Shown piece after piece: positions 1,505 through 61,143 of a stretch of 64,000 bases of DNA (the first letter of the stretch is position 1; each line of letters begins with the position of its first letter). Source of the DNA: Lacinutrix neustonica (GTDB lineage Bacteria > Bacteroidota > Bacteroidia > Flavobacteriales > Flavobacteriaceae). Where the stretch lies: NCBI RefSeq assembly GCF_026625145.1, contig NZ_CP113088.1, forward strand, positions 682,001-746,000, given 5' to 3'. The position numbers and the translations under genes were made by a program. The notes beneath the pieces are model-generated. The model was not told the DNA's origin. It did not search any database and saw nothing but the letters and a program-made list of their open reading frames with translations.

Positions 1505-2381
1505 TACCTTAGTTTTTGCAGTTCTTTTATAAGCTCTTTTTCTTTTGAAGTTAATTTGGTTGGAATCTTTATTTCGTAGGTAATAAATAAATCACCAAAC
1601 TGTCCTTCCTTTTTATATTTCGGAAACCCTTTCCCTTTGAGTTTAACCTTGCTTCCATTCGGGTTTCCGGTTTAATGGTTAATTTAACTCTTCCAGTAAA
1701 AGTGTCTACCATAATATCGCCCCCTAATAAGGCTGTATATAAATCTACATGAACTGTTGTATATAGATTATCCTTATCGCGTTTAAATTTTGAATGGTTA
1801 ACAATTGAGAACTGAATATATAAATCGCCATTGGGTCCCCCATTAAAACCTTTGCCACCATGTCCTGCAATTTTTATTATTTGGCCGTTTTCTACTCCTG
1901 CAGGTATGGTTATACGAATATTTTTATCATTTACAGTAATGGTGCGTTTATGAGAAGTATAAACATCTTTTAGGTCCAACTGCATTTCAGCATTTAAGTC
2001 GTGACCCCGATACTTTACACTCCTATTTCTCGAGGAGCCGCCTCCAAACATACTTCCAAAAATATCTGAAAAATCTTGCTCATACCCCCCACCCGATGCT
2101 GTTTGTGCGCGTCTTTGATACTCCTGCTGCTGTTTTGCCTGTTCGTAAGCTTCGGCATTTTGCCAATGCTCACCATAGGCATCATACTTTTTTCTGTTTT
2201 CACGGGTTGCTCAAGACCTCATTGGCCTCATTTATGGCTTTAAATTGCTTTTCAGCTTCTTTATCATTTGGATTTAAATCGGATGGTATTTACGTGCTAA
2301 CTTTCGGTATGCTTTTTTTATATCCTTATCCGTCGCCTTTTTTGTTATACCTAAAACCTTATAGTAATCTATAAATGCCAT
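1504..2381 (-). CDS. DnaJ/CbpA-type co-chaperone, three frame breaks at CCGGA sites
   Basis: J-domain protein that stimulates DnaK. From ATG at 2381 the N-terminus reads [18 protein letters not shown], with the J-domain HPD loop near residue 33. A Gly-rich linker ([20 protein letters not shown]) follows, then the substrate-binding C-terminal domains ([33 protein letters not shown]). There is no zinc-finger region, so it is CbpA-like rather than full DnaJ. The frame breaks at 2279-2284, 2199-2206 and 1658-1663. Restoring CCGGA at each gives one continuous protein of about 292 residues that ends at 1504 and overlaps the CbpM start. Confidence 0.85.
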
Positions 2382-2408
2382 TGTATTGTTTGTTGTTAAA
2401 TCCTAATC

Positions 2409-2774
2409 TTATATTTTTATTATATCTGTCGGTGTCTCTATAAGAATAGTCTTATCCCCTCTTAAAGCAATAGGTTGCTTCATAATGTCCGGATTATGTT
2501 GTATCATTTTTATCCAATCATCGCTAGACAATTGGTGGTGTTCAAATTTACTATTATAGCTGGGGTGTTCTTGATTTACAAAATCTTCGATTTTAATTTT
2601 AAGACGCTCGGCCAACTCTGCAATTTGTGTTCCCGTGAGTTTTTGCTTTAAAAGATCTATAGGCAAGACAGGAATGCCTTCAGCTCTAGCATAGGCCAAG
2701 GTTTGCTTAGCGCGTACAGAATTAGAATTATAATATAGTGTTATTTGTCTATTTGATGTCGCAATCTCCCCCAT
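2409..2774 (-). CDS. ArsC/Spx-family thioredoxin-fold protein
   Basis: A 121-residue protein matching the arsenate reductase/Spx fold: beta strand ITLYYNSNSVRAKQTLAYA, a middle helix region, and the C-terminal cis-Pro segment KQPIALRGDKTILIETP. The usual N-terminal catalytic Cys (CxxC/CxxS) is absent; the equivalent place reads YYNSNSVRAK. Arsenate reduction is therefore unlikely and the molecular role is unknown. Such proteins are common in flavobacteria and often labelled arsenate reductase. It lies downstream of a small hypothetical gene with a 7-base gap. Confidence 0.7.
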   Translation of the reverse strand: MGEIATSNRQITLYYNSNSVRAKQTLAYARAEGIPVLPIDLLKQKLTGTQIAELAERLKIKIEDFVNQEHPSYNSKFEHHQLSSDDWIKMIQHNPDIMKQPIALRGDKTILIETPTDIIKI

Positions 2775-2781
2775 AACTAAA

Positions 2782-2997
2782 TTACCCTTTATTTTTATAC
2801 GTTTCTATATGATGTTTTAGCAGCTGTTTTAAAGTCTCTAAATAGTCCTTCATCGCTTTAATACCAATATCTGGATGATTATTTGCTGGAATAGTCATTG
2901 GCGTTTCATCTAAATACAGGTATAATTCAGGATAATTCGTTTCTATACGAGTCGTTAGCTTAGTGATTTCAATAAGGGTGTCATGTAAATTTTTCAT
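2782..2997 (-). CDS. Small hypothetical protein
   Basis: Seventy-one residues, soluble, mostly helical, acidic at the start and basic at the end (QLLKHHIETYKNKG). No motif recognised. The frame is tight against the ArsC-like gene (7-base gap), so the two are probably co-transcribed. About 200 bases upstream (2998-3200) I see no gene; that stretch holds a short perfect inverted repeat, TCAGTA-5-TACTGA, at 3091-3107 of unknown meaning. Confidence 0.6.
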   Translation of the reverse strand: MKNLHDTLIEITKLTTRIETNYPELYLYLDETPMTIPANNHPDIGIKAMKDYLETLKQLLKHHIETYKNKG

Positions 2998-3200
2998 TGT
3001 ATTTCTTAATTAAAGGTTGATTTATCATGTCTTTATTACTAAATGTCTTTCTAATTATTACAAAAACCACTTTTAATCGCATGAATTAGGTCAGTAATAA
3101 ATACTGAGACTACGTATTTAAATCAGCACAACTTTATGTATATGAATGTATTAAAAAATAATGAGAATCTTCAATAAACGACAAGAAAACTCGACGCCCA

Positions 3201-3411
3201 TTAGCGTGCTTTCGTTGGGCAGGTGCGAATACCAAATGGCACATACAGTGGACAAAAACTAACAACACTGGTAAGCAAAAATATGCCCGCAAAGACCAAT
3301 AATAAGATACCTAAAGTTCCGAGAGATCACTTCTGTTGCAAACAAAACAATGACGATGACAGCGACTATAAAACGAATCACGCGATCTGCCTTTCCCATA
3401 TTCTTTTTCAT
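3201..3411 (-). CDS. DUF2892/YgaP-like small membrane protein, one frame break at a CCGGA site
   Basis: About 70 residues from ATG at 3411 (MKKNMGKADRVIRFIVAV). Two hydrophobic helices are followed by the family-typical tail with Cys and Pro: after repair the second half reads GTLGILLLVFAGIFLL, then SFCPLYVPFGIRTC, ending at the TAA at 3203-3201. The break is at 3318-3324, where TCCGAGA (plus strand) should be TCCGGA. DUF2892 proteins occur in stress and rhodanese contexts, but their biochemical role is not established. A TGATAAATATCA palindrome with a -7 box lies just upstream (3428-3470), tying it to the same control as the stress block at 11.8-20.6 kb. Confidence 0.8.
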
Positions 3412-3427
3412 AATATTTATATTTTTA

Positions 3428-3470
3428 TAAATATAGGCGCTTGCTCTGATTGTTAAAATGATAAATATCA
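3428..3470 (-). promoter_or_regulatory. FNR-like operator plus -7 box for the DUF2892 gene
   Basis: The palindrome TGATAAATATCA spans 3459-3470. On the minus strand TATATTTA (3435-3428), one mismatch from the Bacteroidota -7 element TAnnTTTG, has its centre 33 bp downstream of the palindrome centre. This puts the palindrome at about -41 and predicts a transcript start about 10 bases before the ATG. Geometry is the same as at the other sites in this window. Confidence 0.6.
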
Positions 3471-3488
3471 GTTGAATCAAGAGCCTTT

Positions 3489-4163
3489 TTAGGGAAGTAC
3501 ACGACCATCTTCCATAGTGATGATTCTATCTGTACGTTTTGCAAAATCTTCGTCATGAGTAACAATGAGCAAGGCTAAGTTTTGTTCTACACTTAACTTT
3601 TTAAAAATATTAAACACATTGTCTGAATTATGACTATCTAAATTCCCTGTGGGTTCATCGCCCATGATAATAGAAGGACTATTTATTAAGGCTCTAGCAA
3701 TAGCCACACGTTGTTTTTCTCCTCCTGATATTTGAGACGCGCGTTTATGTGCTAAATGTGCGATGTTTAATATTTTTAGTTTTTGAAAGGCATCTTGCTC
3801 GATTTCTTTTAAGGATTTGTCGGCTAACTTTTTCGCCGGTAACATCACATTTTCTAATACAGAAAATTCTGAAAGTAAATAGTGAAACTGAAACACAAAA
3901 CCGATATGCTTATTGCGTATGTACGATAATTGATTCCTAGTCTGACCCGTAATTAAAGTATTATTGAGAAACAACTCCCCTTCATATTCTGTATCCATGG
4001 TAGATAAAATATAAAGAAGTGTTGATTTGCCACAGCCCGATTTTCCCATAATTGAAACGAACTCCCCCTGATCAATCTTAAAATTAATATCTTTTAAAAC
4101 ATGAAAAAGCACAGGCTTTCTAAAGTATTTATTTATGTTTCTAGCTTCTAATACTATATTCAT
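3489..4163 (-). CDS. ABC transporter ATPase, LolD/MacB family
   Basis: A 224-residue ATP-binding subunit. Visible motifs are Walker A GKSGCGKST, Q-loop FVFQFHYLL, signature ISGGEKQR, Walker B IIMGDEPTG and the H-loop VTHD. The close match to MacB/LolD ATPases plus the FtsX-like permease immediately upstream (1-base gap) and a periplasmic adaptor before that indicate a MacAB-like export or extrusion system. Gene order in transcription is adaptor, permease, ATPase. No outer-membrane factor gene is adjacent. Substrate unknown. Confidence 0.9.
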   Translation of the reverse strand: MNIVLEARNINKYFRKPVLFHVLKDINFKIDQGEFVSIMGKSGCGKSTLLYILSTMDTEYEGELFLNNTLITGQTRNQLSYIRNKHIGFVFQFHYLLSEFSVLENVMLPAKKLADKSLKEIEQDAFQKLKILNIAHLAHKRASQISGGEKQRVAIARALINSPSIIMGDEPTGNLDSHNSDNVFNIFKKLSVEQNLALLIVTHDEDFAKRTDRIITMEDGRVLP

Positions 4164-4164
4164 A

Positions 4165-5428
4165 TTACTGACCTCTAATTATTTTAACAGGATCTATATT
4201 TTTAGCTTTCCTAGAAGGTAGATACCCCGCAAAAAAAGTAGAAACCATAGCAAAAACAATTCCTATAATATAAAACCAACCATTAAAATTTATAGGATAC
4301 GTTTTTACAGTGGGTAGTGCCTCTGTTTTAAATGGGATAGTGTTAATTATATTGGTAAACACCAAACCAATGAGCAGTCCTAAGAGCCCCCCAACTAGAC
4401 CTATAATGATCGCTTGACTCATGAAAATATATTGCACATCTTTTCCGAGAAAAACCAATCGCTTTTAAAATAGCAATATCATTCATTTTTTCATAAATAA
4501 GCATGTTTAAAATATTGTAAATACCAAAACCAGCAACGATTAACAAGGTGATAGATACAGCGTAAGTAATGAGATTTCTAATGGTTGTGCCCGTTTCAAA
4601 TTGTGCATTTGCCGTATTGATATCTATGGCTTTTAAATTAAATTGTTTCTCTATTGTTTTAGATAATGATAAGGCCTTATCAATAGTATAAAGTTTAACA
4701 TTAATATCTGTTATATAGTTTTCTGTTTCTCCTAAAATACGTTGCACTGTTTTTAAGTTTACAAAACTTTGAATGGCATCCAAATCGGCAACACCACTTT
4801 GGTAAATACCAACAATTTTTAAGGGAAACACATCACCTTTTATAGTGCTTATTTGTACCCGATCTCCAAGAGATAAAGACATTTTTTTGGCGACGCCCGC
4901 ACCTAATAAAATCCCGTTGTCTGTATTTTGAAGTGTCTCTGCAGAACCCTCCACGATATAATCTTTAAAATTGAATAACCTCGCTTCTTCTACAGGAATG
5001 ATTCCCGTTAAATTACCGCCTAATTCAATAGAGCCAGCTATATAAAAAATTTGTGTTTTAATTTGTGGAATGGCACCTTTTACATCTGCATTCTCATTTA
5101 ATAAATGTATGATGGGTAAGGCATTGTGTATTTTTTTCTGACTTTGTTTTGGTTTGATAGAATGTACAACATTAAAGCTATTTTTAAAAGCGTCGTACAC
5201 ATCAACGGGTTGTTTTTTCGAGGGTTCTATTTCATTATAAATATGAATATGAGGGGTTTGATTTAAAATTAAGTTGTCTAACATGGCATTTAAACCAGTC
5301 ATAAAACTGACTAAAGTAATGTAAGCGCCAATACCAAAAGTAACCCCTAAAGCAGCAATCGCCGTTTGCTTAAACTTCGTCAGCAAATGCGTTTTGGCAA
5401 TGTTCAAAATAATTTTCCAGTTAAGCAT
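4165..5428 (-). CDS. FtsX/MacB-like ABC transporter permease, one frame break at a CCGGA site
   Basis: Inner-membrane permease of the exporter. The start is taken at ATG 5428 (MLNWKIILNIAKTHLL), which overlaps the adaptor stop by 8 bases. One N-terminal membrane helix, a large periplasmic MacB core (about residues 45-280), then three C-terminal helices including LITYAVSITLLIVAGFGIY. The FtsX motif ILKAIGFS is interrupted at 4444-4450, where minus-strand TCTCGGA should read TCCGGA. Repair continues into GKDVQYIFMSQAIIIG and the conserved end, about 420 residues, normal for the family. Confidence 0.85.
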
Positions 5429-6506
5429 TATTCGGTTTATAAATGTATGTGGCTTCTGTAATCCCACTTAAAATTTCAACATATTCTAAATTTTCTAAGC
5501 CTTTTGTTATAGTTACTAAACCGTTTTCGGTTTTAACTTTATCGGAATGTATCACATAACTTTTTGGGATGGTTAATACGTTTTCCTTTTTTGAAATAAT
5601 AATATTTGCTTCTCCGGATAATCCAGGATAGACTATTTCAGGAGACACATCGAATAAAGCTTCTAATTTAAAAGTCTGATTTCGTTCGTCCTTTTTAGGA
5701 TAAATTTTTGAGATTCTTCCAGTAAAAATATCACCATTGTAGGCATCTAACGTAATGATGACCTTTTGATCTTTAGAGATTTTTACAATATCCACCTCAT
5801 CGACTAAAAGTTCTACTACAAAATTCGATTCACTTCCTATTAAAGCTAAAGATTGCATGGTGGATACAATCTCTCCTGGTTCATTATAAAGTGCATATAC
5901 TTTGCCTTTGATTTTGCTTTTTACAGTAAAATCCTTTGTGTTAATTAAAGCGGTTTGGTAGTTATTATTTGCTTGTTTTACCGTCGTCTCTAATTCATGC
6001 TTGGTATTGTTGTATCTCCCTTTTAAAAGCTTCAGATTATTTTGAGCTAATTTATAGTTCAACAATTTGGTATCATACTCGACTTTTGATCCTATGCTTT
6101 GCTCCCAAAGGGTTTTCTGTCTGAAAAAATTGATGGAATCATTTTTAAGTTTAAGCCATGCGGCATTAATTTCATCTTGAATACTTGCTAAAATAGTAGC
6201 ACTTCCTGTATAATTTTCTTTGGCTAATTCTAATGATAATCCGGCATTTTGGGTATTAAGCTCTGGTGTACTATTAATAATTTGCATTAAAGGATCACCC
6301 TTTGTAACCAGGTCGCCTTCCGTTACCAAATTCTTATCTAAAATACCACCCACATTCGCATAAACGTTATACAAACTATCAGGCTGAATAGTCACTGAAG
6401 AATAAACCGATTCTGTAATATCTCTTAACTCAGGACGTATTTTATCTTGTTTTTTAGAACAGGAAATCGATACGATAAAAAAAAACATTAAAACTGAAAT
6501 TCTCAT
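5421..6506 (-). CDS. Periplasmic adaptor lipoprotein (HlyD/MacA family)
   Basis: A 361-residue membrane-fusion protein. The N-terminus is a lipoprotein signal with lipobox-like SISC before Cys-16. Then come the first half of a lipoyl/barrel-sandwich domain (GGILDKNLVTEGDLVTKGD), a long alpha-helical hairpin (about residues 85-180), the second lipoyl half (KSKIKGKVYALYNEPGEIV) and beta-barrel domains. It links the permease and ATPase encoded next to it to an outer-membrane exit duct encoded elsewhere. The 8-base overlap with the permease start suggests translational coupling. Confidence 0.85.
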   Translation of the reverse strand: MRISVLMFFFIVSISCSKKQDKIRPELRDITESVYSSVTIQPDSLYNVYANVGGILDKNLVTEGDLVTKGDPLMQIINSTPELNTQNAGLSLELAKENYTGSATILASIQDEINAAWLKLKNDSINFFRQKTLWEQSIGSKVEYDTKLLNYKLAQNNLKLLKGRYNNTKHELETTVKQANNNYQTALINTKDFTVKSKIKGKVYALYNEPGEIVSTMQSLALIGSESNFVVELLVDEVDIVKISKDQKVIITLDAYNGDIFTGRISKIYPKKDERNQTFKLEALFDVSPEIVYPGLSGEANIIISKKENVLTIPKSYVIHSDKVKTENGLVTITKGLENLEYVEILSGITEATYIYKPNNA

Positions 6507-6523
6507 CTTAAGGGTTCATTATT

Positions 6524-7615
6524 TTAATAGTGTAGCTTAGACTCAAGAATAATAAATTCATTGAGGTTCGAAAAATCAATAGCACCTACTAATTTGTTAT
6601 CCTCTGTTACAGCGAAAAAAGGCTTTTTCTCTTTAACAAGCTGACTGTAAGCCTCTTTTAAACCACTATGAACACTAATAGGTTGGTGTGTTTTTGTCAT
6701 GACTTCACTAATGCTTTTTAATCTGTTTTTTGAGTGTTTTATAACATCTGCTCTATATAATATTCCAGCAACCGAATGATCACTATTGACAATCACAAAA
6801 TTGGTTTCACTTCCGGTTAATAACACGTCAATAACGTCTTGAATGGTATCATTAGGGGTAAACGTTGTAATATCTGTAAGCATCGATTCTCTCACCGTAT
6901 GATCTTTAAGGAGCGCATTGTGCTTCACGAATTTATGTTCACCATAGGCACTTATAAAAATAAACAGCGCAATAAAAATTAACACCGGATTATAAAGTAA
7001 GCCTATAAGTAAGAGCAGCACAGCTATAAATTGCCCTACAACAACAGCTACGCGTGTGGCTTTAACACGATCCACAAATAGGGCTAATAAAGCTCTGAAC
7101 ACGCGTCCACCATCCATTGGAAATGCAGGTATGAGATTAAACAAAAACAAACTTAGGTTAGCGACAAAAGTGTAGAGTAGTAAATTTTGAAAGGTAAAAG
7201 TATTAAGCGATATCAAAAGCTCACTGAAGCTTTGACTCGTAAAACTGCTTATGGGTATAACAACATAAAGCAGCATGGCCAGTACTAAATTAACCAATGG
7301 ACCCGCAATAGCTACTAAAAATTCTTGTTTTGGTTCTTCCGGAATGCGCTCCAAGCTTGCTACACCTCCTATGGGGTACAATGTTATTTTTTTAGTTTGT
7401 ATCCCAAAACGCTTAGCAACACTGGCGTGACCTAACTCATGCAATAGCACACAAAAAAAAACAATACCTACGAATGCCAAATTAAACACGACCCCTTCAT
7501 TGGATGCCTCGTTGCGAATCTGCTCTAAAGCAATCCACAATAACAAAAAGAAAAAGGTCCAATGAATACTAATTTCAATTCCTAGAACACGACCTATAGT
7601 TAAGTTTCCTTTCAT
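6524..7615 (-). CDS. Site-2 protease-like M50 metalloprotease with CBS domains
   Basis: Intramembrane zinc protease of the M50B group. Zinc motif HELGH (in LLHELGHASVAKRFG) is about 60 residues in; the third ligand motif is FPMDGGRVFRALLA. Six or so membrane helices are followed by a C-terminal CBS pair (RESMLTDITTFTPNDTI and SEVMTKTHQPISV), which usually senses adenine nucleotides. I place the start at ATG 7615 (MKGNLTIGRVLGIEIS), as homologues begin here; an ATG at 7651 is in frame but would overlap the upstream gene. Target protein unknown. Confidence 0.85.
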   Translation of the reverse strand: MKGNLTIGRVLGIEISIHWTFFFLLLWIALEQIRNEASNEGVVFNLAFVGIVFFCVLLHELGHASVAKRFGIQTKKITLYPIGGVASLERIPEEPKQEFLVAIAGPLVNLVLAMLLYVVIPISSFTSQSFSELLISLNTFTFQNLLLYTFVANLSLFLFNLIPAFPMDGGRVFRALLALFVDRVKATRVAVVVGQFIAVLLLLIGLLYNPVLIFIALFIFISAYGEHKFVKHNALLKDHTVRESMLTDITTFTPNDTIQDVIDVLLTGSETNFVIVNSDHSVAGILYRADVIKHSKNRLKSISEVMTKTHQPISVHSGLKEAYSQLVKEKKPFFAVTEDNKLVGAIDFSNLNEFIILESKLHY

Positions 7616-7634
7616 TTTTTTATTACCATTCGTT

Positions 7635-8923
7635 TTAAACCAAATTTTCAAAGCGTTTAAACGCTTCTTTTTCTAAAGTTTCTTGATAATCAGGATGGGC
7701 AATTTCTATTAGCGCCTTAGCACGCTGTTTTAAATTTTTTCCAAAGAGATCTACAATACCATTTTCTGTTACAACGTAATGAACATGTGCTCTAGTCGTG
7801 GTGACACCCGCCCCCTCCTTTAAAAAAGACACTATTTTAGTGAAGCCTTTTGCTGTTATAGAAGGCATAGCAATAATGGCTTTCCCCCTTCGGAAAGCGA
7901 GGCGCCGCGTATAAAATCCATTTGCCCCCCTACTCCGGAATACTGGTACTTACCAATAGTATCGGCACAAACCTGCCCTGTGAGATCAATTTCTATGGCA
8001 CTATTTATAGCCGTGACTTTCGGGTTTTTTCTAATTAACTTGGTATCATTCGTATAAGAGGCTTCCTTAAAATACACCATAGGATTATCGTCTACAAAAT
8101 CATATAATTTTTGTGATCCCATAGCAAAACAAGTCACAATTTTACCTTGTTTTACTTTTTTATCTTCTCCTGTAATAATGCCCTTTTCTATTAAAGGTAA
8201 AATGCCATCAGAAAACATTTCAGTATGTATCCCTAAACGTTTGTGATGATTCAAATTTGCTAATACGGCGTTAGGGATATTGCCAATACCCATTTGAAGA
8301 GTTGCTCCGTCTTCTACTAAGGAAGCGACATATTGACCAATAGCTTCTTCCATTGGCGATAAGTCTCCAGATCCAGTAGCATGTATTGGGCTATTGACTT
8401 CAATAGCATAATGAATGTTACTCATGTGAATAATACCATCACCATGGGTTTTTGGTACCTGAGGATTAATTTGTGCGATTACAATTTTAGCTGCCTCCAC
8501 AGCAGACAGTGTAACATCTACCGAAGTTCCCAAGGAGCAAAAACCGTGTTGGTCCTGGGGTGACACTTGAATGAATGCGACATCTATGGGTAATATTTGT
8601 CTTTTAAAAAGCAAATGGACCTCACTTAAAAATATGGGAATATAATCGCCATTCATAGAATTCACGGCGCCTCTTACATTACGCCCTACAAAACAACTAT
8701 TGACTTTAAATGCTTTATTATAAGGGTAGTCTGCATGTAAGGCTTTCCCTTCGGTGTGCAATTGAATAATTTCAACATTTTCCAAGGCGTTATAACGTTC
8801 GCATAATGCATCTATTAAGGTATTAGGGGTCATGGCCGCCCCTTGAATAAAAACTCTGCTTCCGGAGGTAACATAAGAAACGGCTTCTTGTTTGGTAACC
8901 ACTTTCAATTTGGTATTTTTCAT
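7635..8923 (-). CDS. Acetyl-CoA hydrolase/transferase family protein, one frame break at a CCGGA site
   Basis: Family of CoA-transferases (acetate or 4-hydroxybutyrate CoA-transferase and acetyl-CoA hydrolase) that move CoA through a glutamyl-CoA intermediate. N-terminal domain with VFIQGAAMTPNTLIDAL; C-terminal domain with MGIGNIPNAVLANL and a region ending ARAHVHYVVTENGIVDLFGK, typical of the family. The frame breaks at 7889-7894, where TCCGAA (minus strand) should be TCCGGAA, giving SLSGRGKAIIAMPS. Repaired length about 429 residues, full size. Substrate cannot be assigned from sequence. Confidence 0.85.
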
Positions 8924-9055
8924 TTTGCTTATACTTAGTCGGTAGGTATTTAATTAGTAATGACCTATTTATTATTATTTTAGTTTTTTGAGGTTCCATT
9001 TTTTATCCTTCCCTATGGTCCCAATTAAGCGTTCTGAAATAAATTTTGAAGTGAT

Positions 9056-9583
9056 TTACGGGGCTTTAAGAAGGTTTGAAGGTGTTAATCCAATATAAAC
9101 AGCATCTGTTAAATAGGTTTTTATTTGTCCTGTTGGATCTATGGTAACCTCGAAGTACTTATACCTGTATACCTTCTTATTTAGTATTTCATTTTCTCCC
9201 AAATCTACTTTTACCAATTCTAATGCAATGGCAGTATTATTATTAAAAGGCATGGCGTTTAAGAATTGAGGGGCAATAACTGTTTTACCTGTTTTATCAA
9301 TGTAACCATAATACGGAATACCGTCTTTATTTTGGGTAATCAAGCATCTGTTACTCTCAAATATGGGGTAATTGATTTTTCCAAATGTGGTAAGCACAAG
9401 ATCTGTTCTAAAGTCAACGACTAAATCACCTTGAGTATCAATAAATGCCCATTGACCATCTTTTTTAATGGCTACTAAACCATTATGAACAGGTGAAATA
9501 TAATCTAGCTTTTCAAGGTTTTGCGATAGGCTAAAAAGCGGAATTAATATTAATGCTATTAGCAAAAGGACTACTTTTTTCAT
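9056..9583 (-). CDS. Exported WG-repeat protein
   Basis: A 175-residue protein with an N-terminal signal peptide (VVLLLIALILIPLFSLS) and WG-repeat-like units: GLVAIKKDGQWAFIDTQGDL and YYGYIDKTGKTVIAPQF. WG repeats are beta-rich and appear in cell-surface or periplasmic proteins of Bacteroidota without an assigned activity. It stands alone, about 130 bases beyond the CoA-transferase start. A degenerate FNR-like box with a well-placed -7 element lies upstream (9611-9653). Confidence 0.75.
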   Translation of the reverse strand: MKKVVLLLIALILIPLFSLSQNLEKLDYISPVHNGLVAIKKDGQWAFIDTQGDLVVDFRTDLVLTTFGKINYPIFESNRCLITQNKDGIPYYGYIDKTGKTVIAPQFLNAMPFNNNTAIALELVKVDLGENEILNKKVYRYKYFEVTIDPTGQIKTYLTDAVYIGLTPSNLLKAP

Positions 9584-9610
9584 AATAATAACGAATTATA
9601 ATACTGACAC

Positions 9611-9653
9611 TAAAAGTATCCTGAATCTCAGTATTATAAAATGATATTAGTCA
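9611..9653 (-). promoter_or_regulatory. Degenerate FNR-like operator and -7 box upstream of the WG-repeat gene
   Basis: TGATATTAGTCA at 9642-9653 differs from TGATnnnnATCA at one position. On the minus strand TACTTTTA (9618-9611), one mismatch from TAnnTTTG, again sits 33 bp from the palindrome centre. The spacing match is the main support; the single mismatch makes this weaker than the other sites. Confidence 0.35.
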
Positions 9654-9675
9654 TGTAAACAATGAAAAAAAACTA

Positions 9676-10374
9676 TTACAAGGTCGCTAAGGCAATCTCT
9701 ACCATTTGATTAAAGGTACTCTCGCGTTCCTCTGAAGACGTCTTTTGCTTAGTAACTAGTGAGTCTGAAATGGTTAAAATAGCTAATGCTTTAACATCAA
9801 ATTTAGCCGCAATGGTATAGAGTCCTGCTGCTTCCATTTCAACACACAGCACACCAAAGTCTGCCCATTTTTTATAAGAGTCGAAATCGTCCTCATAAAA
9901 TTCATCTGCAGAGAGTACATTCCCTGCTTTAATAGGAATGTTTTTATCTTTAGCATAAAGGGCCGCCTTCATAAAAAGCTCAAAGTTAGCAGTGGGTGAA
10001 TAATCGGCATTTATAAAACGTGAATTATTAATGCCGGACGTTGAAGACGCAGACATGGCAATAATGATATCGCGAATTTTTACGTCTTTGTGATACGACC
10101 CTGCAGAGCCCACGCGTATTAAATTTTTAACTCCGTAGTCATTAATTAATTCATGACAGTAAATTAAGGCAGATGGTATCCCCATTCCTGTGCCTTGTAC
10201 AGATACCCGTTTCCCATTATAACTTCCGGTATACCCTAACATACCGCGAACTTCGTTATAACAAACAGTGTCTTTTAAAAAGGTTTCTGCAATCCATTTG
10301 GCGCGCATAGGATCACCAGGCAATAATACGGTTTCTGCAATGTCATCTTTTTTTGCTTCAATATGTATACTCAA
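9676..10374 (-). CDS. deoD: Purine-nucleoside phosphorylase, DeoD type
   Basis: Cleaves purine (deoxy)nucleosides with phosphate to base and (deoxy)ribose 1-phosphate. 232 residues, the usual size for the hexameric bacterial enzyme. Motifs: phosphate-binding GDPMRAKWIAE and GTGMGIPSALIY, nucleoside-binding ESTF-type acidic segment VEMEAAGLYTIAAKF, and catalytic Asp in TISDSL. It is the last gene of the TerB-like/thioredoxin/deoC/deoD operon (2-base gap after deoC), which joins purine salvage to deoxyribose catabolism. Confidence 0.95.
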   Translation of the reverse strand: MSIHIEAKKDDIAETVLLPGDPMRAKWIAETFLKDTVCYNEVRGMLGYTGSYNGKRVSVQGTGMGIPSALIYCHELINDYGVKNLIRVGSAGSYHKDVKIRDIIIAMSASSTSGINNSRFINADYSPTANFELFMKAALYAKDKNIPIKAGNVLSADEFYEDDFDSYKKWADFGVLCVEMEAAGLYTIAAKFDVKALAILTISDSLVTKQKTSSEERESTFNQMVEIALATL

Positions 10375-10376
10375 AA

Positions 10377-11024: not shown

Positions 11025-11322
11025 TATTGATGAGACTTTATAATAGTTACAATCTCATTTTTTTGTAACACTCGGACTGGCGCCACAATTGTTTACCATT
11101 TTTAAAAAGCAACAATGTTGGCACGCCACGAACTTGGTATTTTGAGGCTAAGGGCTGGTTTTTATCCACATCAATCTTTATGATTTTCACCTGATCACCA
11201 AGGACTTCTTTTACTTCTTTTAAGATGGGAGCTAATAGTTTACATGGCCCACACCAATTGGCATGAAAATCCACTAAAACAGGGATCTCTGAATTTATAA
11301 TGGTGTTAAAACTGTTTTTCAT
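11024..11322 (-). CDS. Thioredoxin, one frame break at a CCGGA site
   Basis: Small disulfide reductase, about 98 residues after repair. The active site WCGPCK is near residue 25, with cis-Pro in [12 protein letters not shown]. The frame slips at 11072-11076: minus-strand TCCGAG should be TCCGGAG. The repaired end reads [18 protein letters not shown] and stops in a TAATG overlap with deoC. A shorter reading that ignores the slip would end at 11047 with an unrelated tail. No signal peptide, so cytoplasmic. Confidence 0.88.
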
Positions 11323-11709: not shown

Positions 11710-11729
11710 GTTACCATATGTTTACCAAG

Positions 11730-11804
11730 CGAAACTAAAGGGTCTTTCCTAACTTAACAATGATATATATCAGTAATACCAATTCATTCGTTATATATTT
11801 TTTG
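11730..11804. promoter_or_regulatory. Bidirectional FNR-like operator with divergent -7 boxes
   Basis: A perfect palindrome TGATATATATCA lies at 11761-11772. Toward the kinase (plus strand) a -7-like TATTTTTTG is at 11796-11804; toward the TerB-like operon (minus strand) TAGTTTCG is at 11737-11730, one mismatch from TAnnTTTG. Both box centres are about 33 bp from the palindrome centre, so one dimer could act as class II activator on both sides. The plus-side box has one extra T. Confidence 0.6.
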
Positions 11805-11840
11805 TAATTTTATCAAAAATACAAACTACAAAAATCCGCA

Positions 11841-52443: not shown

Positions 52444-52544
52444 TAGTTACATTTTAGAAGTATAATTTACAACTATTGAGCCTTTTTTATGTTGAGATTA
52501 ACGATAATTTAACCGATTTTGAACCCGCTAATTACAGATGTACA

Positions 52545-52706
52545 TTATTCTTCTTCGCTATTACTCGCTTTAGAGCGCGCAATAATAGCCTTCAATTTTT
52601 CTTTGCGGTCTATTTTTCCCTGACGAAGTTTATTCTTTTTTTTATCCATAAGCTTAGAATGCTTAGTCTTATTTTTCGTGTTTTTAGGACGTCCCGTTTT
52701 AGCCAT
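52545..52706 (-). CDS. Small basic protein (53 residues)
   Basis: From ATG at 52706: starts MAKTGRPKNTKNKTKHS, very rich in Lys and Arg, then a probable helix RQGKIDRKEKLKAIIARSK and an acidic tail SNSEEE. No recognised motif. Such short Lys-rich proteins are conserved in flavobacteria, which supports coding. It could bind nucleic acid; that is speculation from composition. It lies just upstream of the repair operon and downstream of three tRNAs. Confidence 0.55.
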   Translation of the reverse strand: MAKTGRPKNTKNKTKHSKLMDKKKNKLRQGKIDRKEKLKAIIARSKASNSEEE

Positions 52707-52747
52707 GAAATAAAGTTATAAGTTTTAAATATCTATTAGAAACAAAA

Positions 52748-52775
52748 AATCCCTTTCAAATAAATGAAAGGGATT
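52748..52775 (-). terminator. Terminator of the tRNA cluster
   Basis: Perfect 11-bp stem AATCCCTTTCA / TGAAAGGGATT with a 6-base loop, followed on the minus strand by a T-run. Directly after the last tRNA. Confidence 0.85.
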
Positions 52776-52778
52776 CTG

Positions 52779-52852
52779 TGAGCCCTGAAGGATTCGAACC
52801 TTCGACCGCCTCCTTAGAAGGGAGGTGCTCTATCCAGCTGAGCTAAGAGCCC
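52779..52852 (-). tRNA. tRNA-Arg (anticodon TCT)
   Basis: A 74-base cloverleaf: acceptor GGGCTCT/AGGGCTC, D-arm GCTCAGCTGGATAGAGC, anticodon stem CCTCC with loop CTTCTAA (anticodon TCT), T-arm GAAGGTTCGAATCCTTC. CCA is not encoded. Last of three tRNAs in transcription order. Confidence 0.95.
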
Positions 52853-52892
52853 TTAGCATTACAAGTTTAAAAGTGATTTTCAAACTAAAAAG

Positions 52893-52967
52893 TCGGGGTG
52901 GCAGGATTCGAACCTGCGACCTCCGCGTCCCAAACGCGGCGCGATAACCGGGCTACGCTACACCCCG
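52893..52967 (-). tRNA. tRNA-Pro (anticodon TGG)
   Basis: A 75-base cloverleaf: acceptor CGGGGTG/CACCCCG, anticodon stem CCGCG with loop TTTGGGA (anticodon TGG), T-arm GCAGGTTCGAATCCTGC. CCA not encoded. Confidence 0.95.
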
Positions 52968-52988
52968 ATTCCCGGTTATCTAATATTG

Positions 52989-53077
52989 CGGAGAGACAGG
53001 GATTCGAACCCTGGGTAAGTGTTTCCACCTACGACGATTTAGCAAACCGCTCCTTTCGGCCACTCAGGCACCTCTCC
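52989..53077 (-). tRNA. tRNA-Ser (anticodon GCT)
   Basis: An 89-base class II tRNA with a long variable arm. Acceptor GGAGAGG/TCTCTCC, anticodon loop TTGCTAA (anticodon GCT), T-arm CAGGGTTCGAATCCCTG. First in transcription order of the Ser-Pro-Arg cluster. Confidence 0.95.
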
Positions 53078-53167
53078 AATTGTTTATGAACTCTGCTCTA
53101 ATTGCGGATGCAAATGTAAGACAACATCTTATATAACGCAACAAATTTATTTATTTTTTTTTAATAA

Positions 53168-55213
53168 TTATTCTGGATATTCTATTCTTAAATGATAAAT
53201 ATTTGCAAGCTTGCGCTTTAGCACTTTTTTTATGGCCTGAATTTCTTTAAAAGTTATATTGGCATTTAAAAATTGTCCATCTTCCATTTGTTTACTTAAG
53301 ATACTTTCTACAAAATTATCAATTTTTGTCGATGTGGGCTCCTTTAAACTTTTTGAAGCGGCTTCAACACTATCACACATCATTAGTATTGCCGTTTCTT
53401 TACTAAAAGGCTTCGGCCCTGGGTATGAAAAATCGTCGATGTCTACATTTTCATTGACCTCTTGTGCTTTCTTATAAAAATAATAAACACTGCTTGTACC
53501 GTGGTGGGTTCTAATAAAATCAATCACACGATCTGGAAGATTGTTTTTCTTTGCTATTTCTATACCGTCAAGGACATGATCTATAATTATTTTAGCACTT
53601 TCTTTTGGTGATAATTCGTCATGCGGATTTAATCCTGAAGATTGATTTTCTGTGAAATAGGTAGGATTATTCATCTTACCAATATCATGATACAGTGCTC
53701 CCACCCGTATTAACATGGCATTGGCTCCAATTTCATTGGCTGATGCTTCTGCCAAATTCGCAACGTTTAAGGAATGGTGAAAAGTGCCTGGAGCTTCATT
53801 AGATAACCGTTTTAAAAGTTTTGTATTGGTGTCTGACAATTCTAAAAGCGATACATCTGAGACCAATCCGAAAAGGTTTTCATAAATATAAATAAGGGGT
53901 TGTACAAATAAAGTCGCTAGACCGCACAGAATAAACATTCCGAAAGTTTCCCATTTTAAGGTATCAACACTGCCCTCATGAATAACAAAAAACGCAAAAT
54001 AGGCGATGATATAAACTAAGGTAATCTGTCCAACCGATATAAATAGGTTCGCGCGTTTATATAATTCTGAAACCGTTAAAATAGTGACTATTCCAGCTAT
54101 AATTTGTAAGAACATATATTCATAACTATTAGGCACTATAGAACCCAATAACAAAACGGTAATAACATGTGTAAACAGCCCTAAACGCGCATCAAAAAAG
54201 GCTTTTAAAACCAAAGGCAAAATAGCGATAGGTACAATATAAATATATAAAGAATTATAATTAACCAATAGTGTTGTTAGCAACACCATTAATAAAATAT
54301 TAAAGAATATAAAGGTGACTTTTGTATTGTTATTAAAGACTGTTAACCTATATTTTCTTAGAAATAATAGAAGCATTAGCAGGGCTAAAGCTACTAATAG
54401 TGTGTAGGAAAAAATGATTAAATTGTAATTTGATTCGTTCCAAACTTGCGATTTATATTCAGACTTTAACGAGGTTAAAATTAAAAATTTGTTGCCTTCA
54501 ACGACCTCTCCTTTAGAAATAATTAAGGTCCCCTTTTCAATACTGCCTCTTGTATAAGATATTTTACCCATTGCTTCCTGTAGAGCCTTTTCAGTTAAAT
54601 CCCTATTATAAGTCACGTTTGGTTTTATAATATTGAAAAACAAAGCCGTTAGCGGTTTTGAATAGACCTTTAAATTTGAATTTTCTAATTCCGAATCTAT
54701 TTTTTTGCTAACTTCAGATAGGTTATAAAGACTTCCAAAATCTGTTTTTTTCTTTTCAACCCGGTTATCTAAAATGGTGATGTTGGCATTATCTTTAATA
54801 GTGGTAATATCGTTTAGTACGCCATAGTCATACAGGTCCTTAATAATATCTCTTCCTATCCTTTTTAATCGGGACCTGTTCTTTTTTATTGAGTCCGGAA
54901 TGGCTTTATTAAAAGTGTTGTTAAATTCATTTAACACAAACGGCGCTACAGCGTTATCCAGTTCAAAATACCTGGTGCTATTCTTTTCAATATTATTTTT
55001 TTCTTGCGTTAACTCCTCTTCTGTTTTTTGAATCGCAAAATCGAAAGGGGCATAGAGTGTTTCAGACTGCCAAGGTTTTCCTTTTTCAAAATTATATTTA
55101 AATTTTCCGCTTTTAGGAAATAGGTAAACAATTAAAAAAGTAGTAGAAATAAAAAGAAGTGCTTTATATATTAGTGAGTGATTTTTATAGAATTTATTGA
55201 TTAAGTCCTTCAT
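53168..55213 (-). CDS. 7TM-HD family phosphohydrolase, PgpH-like
   Basis: About 681 residues from ATG 55213 (MKDLINKFYKNHSLIYKAL). One N-terminal membrane helix, an extracellular 7TMR-HDED domain (about residues 40-270), seven membrane helices, then a cytosolic HD domain: HHSLNVANLAEASANEIGAN, GALYHDIGKM and FIRTHHGTSSVYYFY. Relatives degrade cyclic di-AMP. Frame intact. An in-frame ATG at 55282 would add 23 residues without a conserved role, so I do not use it. Confidence 0.9.
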   Translation of the reverse strand: MKDLINKFYKNHSLIYKALLFISTTFLIVYLFPKSGKFKYNFEKGKPWQSETLYAPFDFAIQKTEEELTQEKNNIEKNSTRYFELDNAVAPFVLNEFNNTFNKAIPDSIKKNRSRLKRIGRDIIKDLYDYGVLNDITTIKDNANITILDNRVEKKKTDFGSLYNLSEVSKKIDSELENSNLKVYSKPLTALFFNIIKPNVTYNRDLTEKALQEAMGKISYTRGSIEKGTLIISKGEVVEGNKFLILTSLKSEYKSQVWNESNYNLIIFSYTLLVALALLMLLLFLRKYRLTVFNNNTKVTFIFFNILLMVLLTTLLVNYNSLYIYIVPIAILPLVLKAFFDARLGLFTHVITVLLLGSIVPNSYEYMFLQIIAGIVTILTVSELYKRANLFISVGQITLVYIIAYFAFFVIHEGSVDTLKWETFGMFILCGLATLFVQPLIYIYENLFGLVSDVSLLELSDTNTKLLKRLSNEAPGTFHHSLNVANLAEASANEIGANAMLIRVGALYHDIGKMNNPTYFTENQSSGLNPHDELSPKESAKIIIDHVLDGIEIAKKNNLPDRVIDFIRTHHGTSSVYYFYKKAQEVNENVDIDDFSYPGPKPFSKETAILMMCDSVEAASKSLKEPTSTKIDNFVESILSKQMEDGQFLNANITFKEIQAIKKVLKRKLANIYHLRIEYPE

Positions 55214-55302
55214 TATGAATTGAAAATTAATTTCTAATTTCAAATGTAACAAATATTGTTTTCTATTCTCTGTTATATTCAATTTATGCCTCCCATTTTT
55301 AG

Positions 55303-56525
<1,223 letters not shown>

Positions 56526-56538
56526 ATTTGGTAGATTA

Positions 56539-57288
56539 ATGCAATACGGCATTTGCAACTTAAGCATTGTTCCTTTAAGACTTGAAGCAGCAGACACTAG
56601 CGAAATGGTTTCGCAAGTGTTGTATGGTGATGTTTTTAAAATCATAGAAGAACGAAAATTTTGGTGTAAAATCCGTTTAGCATTTGACCAATATGAAGGT
56701 TGGATTGACAAAAAGCAATATATAGAACTATCGGAAGAAGCTTATGGTATCATCATCCAAGAGAAACCAAATTTATCTACAGATCTAATTGAGTTTATTG
56801 AAGATGACCATAAACAATTATATTCCATTCCTTTAGGGTCCACATTAAACGGATTAAAATTTTTAAATCATCATTTTGATGGCCATGCTTCTAACATAAT
56901 ACAAAGAAAAGAAGCGCTTATAAACACAGCTTTTTCCTATTTAAACACACCCTACCTATGGGGAGGTAAAACGCCGTTTGGTATTGATTGTTCGGGTTTA
57001 CCCGAGATGGTTTACAAACTTAACGGCTACAAATTATTACGAGATGCTTCGCAACAGGCCACTCAAGGTGAGGCTTTAAGCTTTATAGAAGAAAGTGACC
57101 CTGGGGATTTAGCCTTTTTTGATAATGCTGAGGGGCATATTGTACACGTAGGTATCATTATGAAAGACAACTACATCATTCATGCTCATGGCAAAGTTCG
57201 TATTGATCGATTAGATCATTCCGGTATTTATAATGTAGATAAACACATACACACTCATAAACTTCGTGTCATTAAAAAAATCATATAA
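56539..57288 (+). CDS. NlpC/P60 family cell-wall peptidase
   Basis: A 249-residue protein. N-terminal SH3-like domain (LYGDVFKIIEERKFWCKI, YEGWIDKKQY), then NlpC/P60: catalytic Cys in PFGIDCSGLPEMVY, His in HIVHVGIIMKDN, third residue His in YIIHAHGKVR. Hydrolyses gamma-D-Glu-meso-DAP-type peptide bonds. No obvious signal peptide, as for many Bacteroidota members. Ends before a strong terminator. Confidence 0.9.
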   Translation: MQYGICNLSIVPLRLEAADTSEMVSQVLYGDVFKIIEERKFWCKIRLAFDQYEGWIDKKQYIELSEEAYGIIIQEKPNLSTDLIEFIEDDHKQLYSIPLGSTLNGLKFLNHHFDGHASNIIQRKEALINTAFSYLNTPYLWGGKTPFGIDCSGLPEMVYKLNGYKLLRDASQQATQGEALSFIEESDPGDLAFFDNAEGHIVHVGIIMKDNYIIHAHGKVRIDRLDHSGIYNVDKHIHTHKLRVIKKII

Positions 57289-57320
57289 AAAAACCGCTTT
57301 TCAAAAAAGCGGTTTTTTTT
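57287..57320. terminator. Bidirectional terminator
   Basis: A-rich/T-rich flanks around a stem AAAACCGCTTTT / AAAAGCGGTTTT with a small loop. Works for the plus-strand NlpC/P60 gene and the minus-strand TPR gene. Confidence 0.9.
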
Positions 57321-57338
57321 ATATCGTTGAACGTGTTA

Positions 57339-58581
57339 CTAAAGGTTAAAATTCACTTTAATTTCTTTAGCTTTTGCCGCTTCTCCTACTGCCGAATAAA
57401 TATTCATAAGTGTTCTAGCAACGTCTGCATCTGCATTACCACTGTTCACTACTTTTTCTAAATAAGGAATCGCTTCTTTATAGACAATTTTACGTTTGGC
57501 AATTAATTCATCATAACGTTGGTTATCTGCACTAGAATTACCCAATCCATTCATTTCTTCTACAATAGCTTTATCTTCATCCAATATTAAAACAGCTAGA
57601 TTGGTTAATGCATTCACATTGTTTGAATCCAATGATACCACTTTCAAGTAGTACTTTTTCGCCTCTTCTTTCTTTCCTGCTTTTGAAGATAGAACCCCTA
57701 GATTAAATAATAAATCTTTATTTTCCGGGTCCCTAGCGGTAGCTTCTTTAATTAAACGCTCATACTCTTGAGTATCACCTAACTTGTAATAGATGTTAGC
57801 TTCTGTAATGACTAAATCAGAGTTTAATGGATCTGTAGCTCTCGCCTCTTTAATGGCAGTCAATGCTTCATCCATTTTATCTTGCTGAAGATAAATAAAA
57901 GCGATGTTTTTTGTGATTTCGGGAGCTTTAGATTTTGTATCTCTTTCGCCAGGAGCAATATGAGATTTAATTGTTTTTACATACAAATCTCTTGTTGCCT
58001 TATCAAAAACCTCTTCTTCACCAGTCTCTTTGTTTATGGCAAAATACTCCGTTTTAACTCCAGTATATCCTAATTCTTTAAGCTTTAAATAATGTTTTAA
58101 AGCGGCATCGAAATCTTGTCCACTTACTGCACTTACTGCTGCATAATATAAATACTCGGCATCAGCAGGAACAACTTCGTGCAAATTAGCGAAAGCCATT
58201 TCTGCTTCTTTAAAATTTTTATTTGTAAATAAAGTGTTTGCTTTTTGAAGTAAGTCATTTTCCATTAATTTTCTCAAATCTGCAACTTCATCAGCATAGG
58301 AATTTCCGAGATATATTTTCAAGACTTTCTACAGCCATCATTACCTCTTCGCCGGAACCAGCACCATTGGCAAAGAATGCTTTTCCTTTATTAAGATAAA
58401 ATTTCGCTTTGCTTTTATCGTCCATAGATGAAAGTAATGGCTCTAATTCTAAAACTGCAGCTTTAGCTTCTGCATAATTATTATTTTTTACTGCTTTCTC
58501 TAGCTCTCTTAATTCTTTCTTTTGTGCAAAAGAAAAAAAGGTTATCATTAATGCTAATGAGAGAATTAATTGTTTTTTCAT
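57339..58581 (-). CDS. Exported TPR-repeat protein, one frame break at a CCGGA site
   Basis: About 413 residues. Signal peptide (LILSLALMITFFSFAQ), then TPR units, for example ALLFNLGVLSSKAGKKEEA-like and NIAFIYLQQDKMDEAL. The frame slips at 58304-58310 (TCTCGGA for TCCGGA), restoring LENISGNSYADEVADL. Role unknown; TPR proteins act as scaffolds. It follows gyrA on the same strand after about 30 bases. Confidence 0.85.
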
Positions 58582-58612
58582 GTTAAATTATAATTTTTAT
58601 TTAAAGATTTTT

Positions 58613-61143
58613 TTATTCTTCTTCGTTAGAAGCAAGAGTCGTGCCATTGTCTATTTCATCCGGATTTTCAACGCCTTCAATACCTTCTTCAATAACTTCT
58701 TCGTCCTCATGCATCACTTTTGCAACTGCGGCAATAGAATCTTTGCCTTTTAAATTAATCAGTTTAACGCCTTGTGTCGCACGACCCATCACTCGTAAAT
58801 TGGCTACCGCCATTCTAATGGCTATCCCCGATTTATTGATAATCATTAAGTCATCCTCATCGGTTACACTCTTAATAGATACTAAGTTACCAGTTTTTTC
58901 TGTAATAGAAATCGTTTTTACACCTTTTCCGCCGCGATTAGTAATTCTATAGTCTTCTAGACTAGATCGTTTACCATACCCATTCTCTGATACGACAAGG
59001 ATGCCACTTTCCATATCGTCTACAGCAATCATTCCAATAACCTCATCTGTGTCTTCATTTTGTAAACGAATACCTCTTACACCGAAGCACTACGCCCCAT
59101 TGGTCGTGTTTTGGCTTCTTCAAAACGAATGGCTTTACCCGATTTTAAGGCTAACATAACTTGGCTTTCGCCTGTAGTTAATTTTGCTTCTAATAAAACA
59201 TCATCCTCTTTAATCGTAATGGCGTTAATACCATTGGTTCTTGGACGTGAATATTGCTCTAAAGAGGTCTTTTTAACTTGACCTTTTTTAGTCGCCATAA
59301 TAACGTAATGACTATTAATGTAGTCTTCATCTTTAAGATCTTGAGTACAAATAAACGCCATCACTTTGTCATCTTGCTCAATATTAATAAGGTTTTGAAT
59401 GGCTCTTCCTTTTGAAGTTTTACTTCCTTCAGGAATTTCATACACACGCATCCGGAAACATTTTCCTTTTTGAGTAAAGAATAGCATGTATTGGTGGTTA
59501 GTACCCACAAATAAATGTTCCAAGAAATCCTCATTACGCGTGGTTGATGCTTTCTGTCCAACACCTCCTCTATTTTGGGTTTTGTATTCATTTAAAGACG
59601 TACGTTTAATATAACCCGCATGAGAAATAGTAATGACTACTTGTTCATTTGGAATCATATCTTCGATACTTAAATCTCGCCCTGCATATTCAATAACTGA
59701 ACGACGCTCATCACCATATTTATCGCGAACAACCACTAATTCTTCCTTAATGATAGCCATACGACGCTCTTTTTTGTCGAGGATATCCTTTAATTCAATT
59801 ATCGTTTTCATTATTTCATCGTACTCTCCTCTTAGCTTGTCTTGCTCTAGTCCTGTTAATTGACGTAGACGCATTTCAACAATTGCTTTGGCTTGAATTT
59901 CAGAAAGTTTAAAACGTTCTATTAAGTTCGTCCTAGCTTCATCTGCATTCGAAGAGGCTCTTATTATTTTAATAACTTCATCTATATTGTCTGAAGCAAT
60001 AATTAAACCCTCTAAGATATGCGCGCGTTCTTCTGCTTTGCGTAGTTCGTATGTTGTTCTTCTTACTACAACATCATGCCTGTGCTCAACAAAATAATGA
60101 ATGAGCTCTTTTAAATTTAATAGTTGTGGACGCCCATTAACCAATGCAATATTGTTAACACTGAACGACGATTGTAATGCGGTATATTTATATAGTTTAT
60201 TAAGAACGATATTTGGAATGGCATCACGCTTTAACACGTAAACAATTCGCATTCCATTTCTATCAGATTCATCACGAATAGTAGCAATACCTTCGATTTT
60301 CTTTTCATTAACCAAATCTGCAGTCTTCTTAATCATGTCTGCTTTGTTGACCTGATATGGAATCTCATTTACGATAATACATTCGCGACCATGAACCTCC
60401 TCCAATACTGTTTTCCCCCGCATTACTATACGTCCTCGACCTGTATGAAATGCTTCTTTAACACCATCATAACCATAAATAGTTCCTCCTGTTGGAAAAT
60501 CCGGCGCTTTAATGTGTTGCATTAATTCATCAATCTCAATGTCATTATTCTCAATATAGGCAATGGTTCCATCGACAACTTCTGTTAAGTTATGTGGTGG
60601 CATATTTGTTGCCATACCTACCGCAATACCGTAAGCTCCATTAACTAAAAGGCCCGGAATACGTGTTGGTAAAACGGTTGGTTCCTCTAATGTATCATCA
60701 AAATTTAATTTGTGATCTACTGTTTCTTTGTCAATATCAGCAAGCATATCCTCAGATATTTTTCGCATTCTTGCTTCAGTATAACGCATGGCTGCAGGGC
60801 TATCGCCATCTACAGATCCAAAGTTACCTTGACCATCAACTAACATATAACGCAAACTCCATTCCTGAGCCATACGCACCATTGCATCATAAACCGAAGT
60901 ATCACCGTGTGGGTGATACTTACCTAAAACCTCACCCACAATTCTTGCAGATTTTTTATGTGCACTATTTGCTCTAACACCCAGTTCGTGCATACCATAT
61001 AGTACACGTCTATGAACTGGCTTTAATCCATCTCTTACGTCTGGTAAAGCACGTGACACAATGACTGACATTGAATAATCAATGTAAGCCGATTTCATTT
61101 CATCTTCAATATTGATTGGAATCAGTTTTTCTCCTTCTGCCAT
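58613..61143 (-). CDS. gyrA: DNA gyrase subunit A, one frame break at a CCGGA site
   Basis: Type II topoisomerase subunit, about 843 residues. Start at ATG 61143 ([18 protein letters not shown]). Conserved [20 protein letters not shown], quinolone-region [15 protein letters not shown], catalytic Tyr in [10 protein letters not shown], and C-terminal pinwheel repeats including the GyrA-box-like QNRGGVGQK. The frame breaks at 59081-59085: TTCGGT (minus strand) for TTCCGGT, restoring GRSASGVRGIRL. As gyrA is essential, the break is surely an error in the sequence. Confidence 0.96.

Follow-up and report, generated by a model that had tools for sequence, protein, structure and literature searches.

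In the deposited genome of Lacinutrix neustonica (assembly GCF_026625145.1, contig NZ_CP113088.1), one word, CCAGA (TCTGG on the opposite strand), fails with any flanking base, and about three quarters of its expected sites are wrong in the consensus. The word comes out as CCGGA (a substitution), CCGA (a base lost), CCGAGA (a base gained) or rarer forms, and the errors fall without regard to codon position, to the orientation of a gene or to how important it is, breaking the frames of many genes. We analyzed a window of 64,000 nucleotides (bases 682,001-746,000 of the single-contig genome of 3,905,328 bp) together with further stretches of the same chromosome, and consider it very probable that the errors arise as an artefact where CCAGA is modified; this judgement does not depend on which enzyme is responsible. 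An earlier note on the window had likewise proposed systematic miscalls at one modified pentamer, and this proposal is well supported once the pentamer it named, CCGGA, is replaced by CCAGA.

As the reference we used the nearest same-genus relative (G005), which is listed as 100% complete and has a DNA identity of mostly 80-87%; the window is collinear with it in three rearranged blocks. Because the chromosomes are rearranged, position-matched stretches of the reference mostly did not align, and the homologous stretches were placed by search instead. One search anchor added ~17 kb of alignment, and four of the seven own segments (X4-X7, 78 kb) remained unaligned and were excluded from the site tests, as were k-mers spanning more than 8 alignment columns. 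High-scoring segment pairs (HSPs) were discarded when they had fewer than 300 columns, fell below 72% identity (70% in the site comparison with 80 relatives) or were the lower-scoring of an overlapping pair; in the comparisons of the gyrA region with the 80 relatives only the HSP length and identity limits were applied.

We counted all 4-, 5- and 6-mers over the aligned 158 kb, assuming no motif. CCAGA was five-fold depleted (59 here vs 313 in the reference), its neighbors CCAGC, CCAGG, CCAGT, ACAGA, GCAGA and TCAGA were near-equal in both genomes (CCAGG, for example, 102 vs 109), and CCGGA (173 vs 64) and CCGAGA (62 vs 11) were in excess. At the 313 CCAGA sites of the reference, our genome reads CCGGA 65 times, CCAGA 35, CCGAGA 27, CCCGA 24 and CCTGA 23 times, and more rarely CCGA (20), CTAGA (16), CCAAA (14) and CCGTA (10); several of these replacements are ordinary synonymous changes. 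CCAGA also has the highest indel rate of all 5-mers with at least 50 sites, those with fewer having been left out of the ranking (81/448, vs 3,204/219,649 for all 5-mers), and eight of the fourteen next-ranked 5-mers overlap it. The density of CCAGA is 0.42/kb in the 12 own stretches counted (284 kb), low in every one of them, vs 2.02/kb in the reference (418.6 kb), and the ratio of observed to expected occurrences is 0.46 here, 1.21 in the reference and 1.15 as the median of 80 named relatives, the lowest of which reaches 0.67 (a short locus with 5 sites). When the CCAGA sites of the 80 relatives in the gyrA region were followed, 8.7% were kept intact here and 50.5% in the reference, so the finding does not rest on the reference alone.

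The failure is seen with every base flanking CCAGA and in both orientations, with CCGGA replacing 35 of 130 sense and 30 of 120 antisense sites. Sorted by the following base, 22/107 sites are intact before T, 15/206 before A, 8/78 before G and 5/57 before C. Among the 7-mers, TCCAGAT is found 34 times in our 284 kb and 78 times in the 418.6 kb of the reference, and GCCAGAA and CCCAGAA, with 77 and 34 copies in the reference, have none left here. An rRNA gene, sought by three primer words in the examined stretches for a check of the motif in 16S, was not found.

The codon position of each site, taken as the place of the motif's middle base, was followed over 220 kb of alignment. Of 114 reference CCAGA sites at positions 1 and 2, 8 are intact here, 14 read CCGGA and 14 carry an indel. 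The corresponding A-to-G change in six control motifs at the same positions occurs in 3/518 cases (GCAGA 1/67, ACAGA 1/140, TCAGA 0/51, CCAGT 1/135, CCAGC 0/73, CCAGG 0/52), which differs from 14/114 with a Fisher p of 8e-9. Counted among intact, CCGGA and indel outcomes together, the share of CCGGA is 14/36 at positions 1 and 2 and 83/190 at position 3, where some natural change is included (p 0.71). CCTGA at position 2 (n=108) shows no indel and no CCGGA, and at position 1 (n=6) one CCGGA. CCGGA itself at positions 1 and 2 (n=66) is intact at 15 sites, with one indel, one CCGTA and other substitutions at the remainder; the CCAGA outcome at these positions, 28 CCGGA or indel against 8 intact, differs from this (Fisher 1.4e-6). 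Changes that are blind to codon position and that break gyrA, tsaD, pfkA and others are not what living genes accumulate.

The same errors are visible as broken genes. We counted net frame breaks against intact reference genes, excluding breaks within 10 columns of a gene end and indel clusters whose net change was a multiple of three (36 such 'compensated' clusters in the 204-kb comparison); the counts are of frame breaks. In the alignable parts of the window there are 39 breaks in 25 genes. The many breaks of the earlier note are thus real, its figure of 42 in 28 genes becoming 39 in 25 over an area that leaves uncovered what the reference lacks, such as ~46.9-52.4 kb. One of the forms CCGA, CCGAGA, CCGTGA or CCAGGA lies within 6 columns of the break in 34 of the 39 cases, on both strands and from 1661 to 59085, as that note had described, and gyrA, tsaD, pfkA and serB are all hit as it had said. 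The five breaks lacking a form are three of homopolymer length (989, 7884 and 30468) and two in a poorly aligned 122-aa open reading frame (ORF; 52493 and 52719), in which the form match of a further break, at 52519, is probably a chance one. The three homopolymer runs are of A, C and T, away from any CCAGA site. At the 39 breaks the reference reads CCAGA 17 times, CCTGA 5 times, CCGGA once and something else 16 times. The affected places in the window are as follows.

1..64000, unstranded: window-wide motif signature, CCAGA/TCTGG 28 (0.44/kb; reference 2.02/kb), CCGGA/TCCGG 83 (1.30/kb; reference 0.36/kb)
1658..2285, minus: DnaJ-like gene (score below the curated cut-off), breaks 1661, 2203 and 2281
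4443..4452, minus: LolC/E-like permease gene (below cut-off), CCGAGA-form break, CCAGA in the reference
11068..11078, minus: thioredoxin gene, break with a CCGA form nearby
12494..12504, plus: PAS-domain/histidine-kinase-like gene, CCGA-form break
15050..20312, plus: hemN, a universal-stress-protein-like gene (below cut-off) and others, CCGA/CCGAGA breaks 15054, 17059, 17215, 17928, 19621 (hemN) and 20306 (stress-protein-like)
22162..22172, minus: serB (phosphoserine phosphatase), frame break
25089..29070, minus: break group 25093, 25519, 26796, 27073 and 29066 (the last in an N-acetylmuramoyl-L-alanine amidase-like gene, below cut-off)
30464..30474, plus: T-run length difference, non-CCAGA, from the alignment with the reference
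35823..35924, minus: pfkA, breaks 35827 and 35918
36196..39746, minus: 1464-aa gene, weakly TamB-like (49 bits, cut-off 825), breaks 36200, 38096, 38167, 38841 and 39741
40810..41274, plus: tsaD, breaks 40814, 41134 and 41268
42393..42403, plus: rsmE (16S rRNA uracil-1498 methyltransferase), CCGAGA-form break
44259..44269, plus: membrane-protein gene of uncertain family, CCGA-form break
55481..55491, plus: acetyl-CoA acyltransferase (thiolase) gene, CCGA-form break
58305..58315, minus: TPR-like gene (below cut-off), CCGAGA-form break
59080..59090, minus: gyrA, near its end, CCGA-form break, CCGGA in the reference; window ORF 688 aa, reference orthologue 846 aa

Families passing their cut-offs among the broken genes are gyrA, tsaD, pfkA, serB, hemN, thioredoxin and rsmE; the DnaJ-like, LolC/E-like and TamB-like genes score below theirs. 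Synteny with the reference breaks at window positions ~20,645-20,981, 46,895-52,428 and 57,307, and at the matching place the reference stretches compared contain nothing corresponding to the part at 46.9-52.4 kb. Shortly after this part, three minus-strand tRNA genes (Arg-TCT, Pro-TGG and Ser-GCT) are clustered at 52,778-53,077, and a 77-bp stretch over the tRNA-Pro gene is identical to another locus of the reference.

The frame breaks are genuine in the deposited sequence and extend beyond the window, a statement about the genome that is judged from ~13% of it. In the 204 kb around the window, 62 of the 140 intact reference genes followed (140,619 bp) carry 96 net breaks; the flanks contribute 57 of these in 37 genes, 44 of them with a CC-GA-type form nearby, and the reference reads CCAGA at 33 flank breaks and CCGGA at one. 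Adding the stretches at 1.0-1.12 Mb and 3.1-3.2 Mb gives 147 breaks, 119 of them form-bearing, with 97 of 210 genes hit over 198,749 bp, which supports the expectation that false pseudogenes would be found well outside the window. Even in a block at 1.0 Mb that is 93% identical to the reference, 5 of 12 genes are broken. As a control, seven reference genes of the gyrA region were compared with the 80 named relatives, giving 3 breaks in 512,990 aligned bp and no break at all in 78 of the 80, vs 4 breaks in 10,680 bp for the same region of our genome (one in a poorly aligned small ORF). It takes the place of a reverse control that looked for breaks in the relative along own ORFs; this had given 69 breaks, spread over 60 of 175 gene comparisons, but was discarded because the ORF fragments of broken genes recount the same breaks. 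The genome is listed with a completeness of 84.46 and a contamination of 4.93, and 10 of 12 other genomes of the genus are listed at 99-100% completeness; a single-contig chromosome that is ~84% complete is odd and fits widespread broken genes. Its GyrA is closest to Winogradskyella records (96%) among the best 80 relatives.

In the living organism the affected genes are most probably intact, and the deposited chromosome is most likely a single-molecule, nanopore-only consensus, with which the three breaks of homopolymer length fit. CCAGA/TCTGG would then be misread systematically in the consensus because of a base modification there on which the basecaller had presumably not been trained. CCAGA/TCTGG forms, except for its outermost bases, a near-palindrome around a central A:T pair, like the Dcm site CCWGG, and a single C5-cytosine methyltransferase could modify the inner C of each strand, misleading reads of both; such marking would explain why the majority of the consensus is wrong. 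In forms such as CCGTGA, CCGTA and CCGCA, the caller may hear G for the middle A and then err again.

Artefacts of this class have been described. In native DNA of Listeria monocytogenes, consensus errors fall at GCAGC or GCTGG and are nearly gone after amplification (Chiou et al. 2023, PMC10687267). There, as here, the word is a lineage-specific asymmetric pentamer and the consensus is wrong after polishing (Q26-32 before amplification in Listeria); the differences are that the Listeria case was shown by whole-genome amplification, and that here the word is CCAGA and indels are many. In Klebsiella pneumoniae, ~70% of the consensus errors of then-current callers lay at the Dcm sites CCAGG/CCTGG (Wick et al. 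2019, PMC6591954), a near-identical CC-W-G word carrying 5-methylcytosine (m5C), but here CCAGG is unaffected and CCAGA fails. Ambiguities of the R/Y kind at strain-specific motifs are reported for some of 264 isolates of 32 species, and in ten K. pneumoniae samples PCR sequencing lowered the number of affected positions from 2357 to 44 (PMC11610573); the A/G and T/C confusion at such motifs resembles ours, whereas base ambiguities are described there and deletions and insertions are also frequent here.

Several points weigh against an artefact at a modified CCAGA in nanopore reads. That the reads were nanopore ones is argued from analogy and from the homopolymer-length breaks. CCGTGA, CCGTA and CCGCA are two edits from CCAGA and one from CCGGA. 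Of the sites where CCAGA is expected, about a quarter survive, with the best survival before T, and the Listeria errors are mainly mismatches with few indels (PMC10687267). Indels also occur at position-3 sites where the reference has CCTGA (17/125) or CCGGA (3/32); our genome may have CCAGA there by synonymous turnover. Against the 80 more distant relatives, indels here are at least as frequent at CCTGA sites (8.6%) as at CCAGA sites (7.3%); since middle bases turn over freely at that distance, we give the nearer comparison more weight. A modification of one strand should often let reads of the opposite strand rescue the consensus. Finally, no methyltransferase is tied to CCAGA by any test here.

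Turning to the enzyme, we searched the whole genome with five Pfam methyltransferase families, which sets the scope of the candidates. No gene matching these families lies in the window, and no D12-type methyltransferase (PF02086) was found genome-wide; a weak match at 3.681 Mb was rejected, being by eye a HemK/PrmC-like protein methyltransferase. Four candidate DNA methyltransferase loci, none of them assigned to CCAGA, are listed below with the nuclease gene that adjoins one of them.

52,498-53,451: type I HsdM, followed by a specificity subunit (by eye), from the Pfam search
851,333-852,040: type IIG-like protein, 1014 aa, padloc type IIG model 1351 bits
~2.245 Mb: C5-cytosine methyltransferase, 493 aa, with an N-terminal helix-turn-helix, PF00145 286 bits
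~2.244-2.247 Mb: HNH nuclease gene, 374 aa, directly following the C5 methyltransferase gene, HNH_2 42 bits
3,107,579-3,108,133 (3.108 Mb): N6/N4 methyltransferase, 228 aa, from the Pfam search

The earlier note had placed the modifier outside the window, and candidate methyltransferase genes do lie there. Our leading candidate, which we favor with a confidence only somewhat better than even, is the C5 enzyme at 2.245 Mb. It is preferred because Neisseria meningitidis carries m5C at CCAGA and because marking of both strands would explain the wrong majority. In N. meningitidis, CCAGA is the site of an m5C restriction-modification system, confirmed by MspJI cleavage (PMC7046676, PMC7973814); the word is the same, the enzyme there is a C5-cytosine methyltransferase, and here the C5 gene adjoins a restriction-type HNH gene. 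The likeness to NEIS0771 is one of word and enzyme class, and the evidence there consists of PacBio and MspJI data rather than nanopore errors (PMC7046676, PMC7973814). On plasmids, two homologues that match residues 120-488 of the C5 enzyme at 57 and 56% identity adjoin LlaJI-type nucleases and not an HNH gene, which also counts against our assignment, and among the matches listed the plasmid homologues do not reveal the target. The HNH gene itself is matched part-length only (53 records, none covering 80%). Beside the best-ranked listed plasmid homologue, on an Acinetobacter schindleri plasmid (2408-4233), stands a very-short-patch repair gene. The C5 and HNH genes lie in an island-like segment (2,238,001-2,256,000, offsets 2070-8706) with an integrase (by eye) and small genes.

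The alternative that survives best shares the artefact and assigns the mark, as N6-methyladenine or another modification, to a different enzyme, such as the type IIG protein of 1014 aa (851 kb) or the N6/N4 methyltransferase of 228 aa (3.108 Mb). Both genes are present, the former fits a padloc type IIG model at 1351 bits, and an asymmetric word suits a type IIG enzyme. With a mark on one strand only, roughly every second read should be correct, but the consensus is wrong at about three quarters of the sites. The A/G and T/C confusions are the main ambiguities in K. pneumoniae (PMC11610573), which speaks for this alternative, and the CCAGA modification in the literature found is m5C, which speaks against it (PMC7046676, PMC7973814); on balance we regard it as possible but distinctly less likely than the C5 enzyme. 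The strength of the effect, with most sites wrong and frequent indels, might instead reflect a bulkier or unrecognised modification at CCAGA from an uncharacterised system in this marine Flavobacteriaceae lineage, which we think improbable. Slightly less probable still is that nothing is modified and that the basecaller or polishing model simply fails at CCAGA: sequence alone cannot separate the two, but CCAGA is a common word whose failure in every genome would presumably be notorious, and the pentamer errors of Listeria were nearly gone on amplified DNA (PMC10687267).

The earlier note's reading, with CCGGA as the word that is modified and misread, now seems very improbable. Every observed form is one edit away from CCGGA, a pentamer of the same length restores the frame equally well, the gyrA break does face CCGGA in the reference, and 3 of 32 position-3 CCGGA sites carry indels. 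But CCGGA is over-represented rather than eroded (173 vs 64), its sites at positions 1 and 2 suffer a single indel in 66, the k-mer scan picks CCAGA, and the reference has CCGGA at only 1 of the 39 window breaks. The 172 own CCGGA sites in the aligned part face CCAGA 65 times and CCGGA 17 times. The effect is indeed partial, as had been said, in that about a quarter of the expected CCAGA sites are intact, but the intact CCGGA sites cited for it are largely silent misreadings of CCAGA; the note was misled because CCGGA is the form in which CCAGA is most often misread and also has the right length. Genuine mutation, whether in a decaying or hypermutable lineage or through real avoidance of CCAGA, would account for the depletion and for 63 of the 65 CCGGA replacements in the first 158 kb falling at codon position 3, but is scarcely credible, since with more sites positions 1 and 2 are replaced as well (14/114 vs 3/518), so that selection is no filter, other synonymous exits at position 3 (CCTGA 33/325, CCCGA 32/325) are not above controls, and gyrA, tsaD, pfkA, thioredoxin and 5 of the 12 genes of the 93%-identical block are broken, while 80 relatives show 3 breaks in 513 kb of the gyrA region. 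An early reading of the A-to-G change as synonymous evolution (63/191, 2/32 and 0/27 at positions 3, 1 and 2) was dropped once these sites were added.

The class of artefact is known; the motif and the host are new as far as the literature searches reach, in which, judged from listings, no further report of DNA methylation at CCAGA was found beyond N. meningitidis. At ~0.6-0.7 breaks per kb of coding sequence (96/140.6 kb and 147/198.7 kb), extrapolation suggests on the order of two thousand false breaks in 3.9 Mb, to which substitutions of the CCGGA kind would add further errors. The genome appears to be a species representative, and these errors carry over into its predicted proteins, its pseudogene counts and its completeness (84.46). 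An assembly alone, together with a relative and the codon phase, can name the modified word and distinguish it from the form in which it is misread. Confirmation of the modifier would yield a CCAGA methyltransferase in Bacteroidota.

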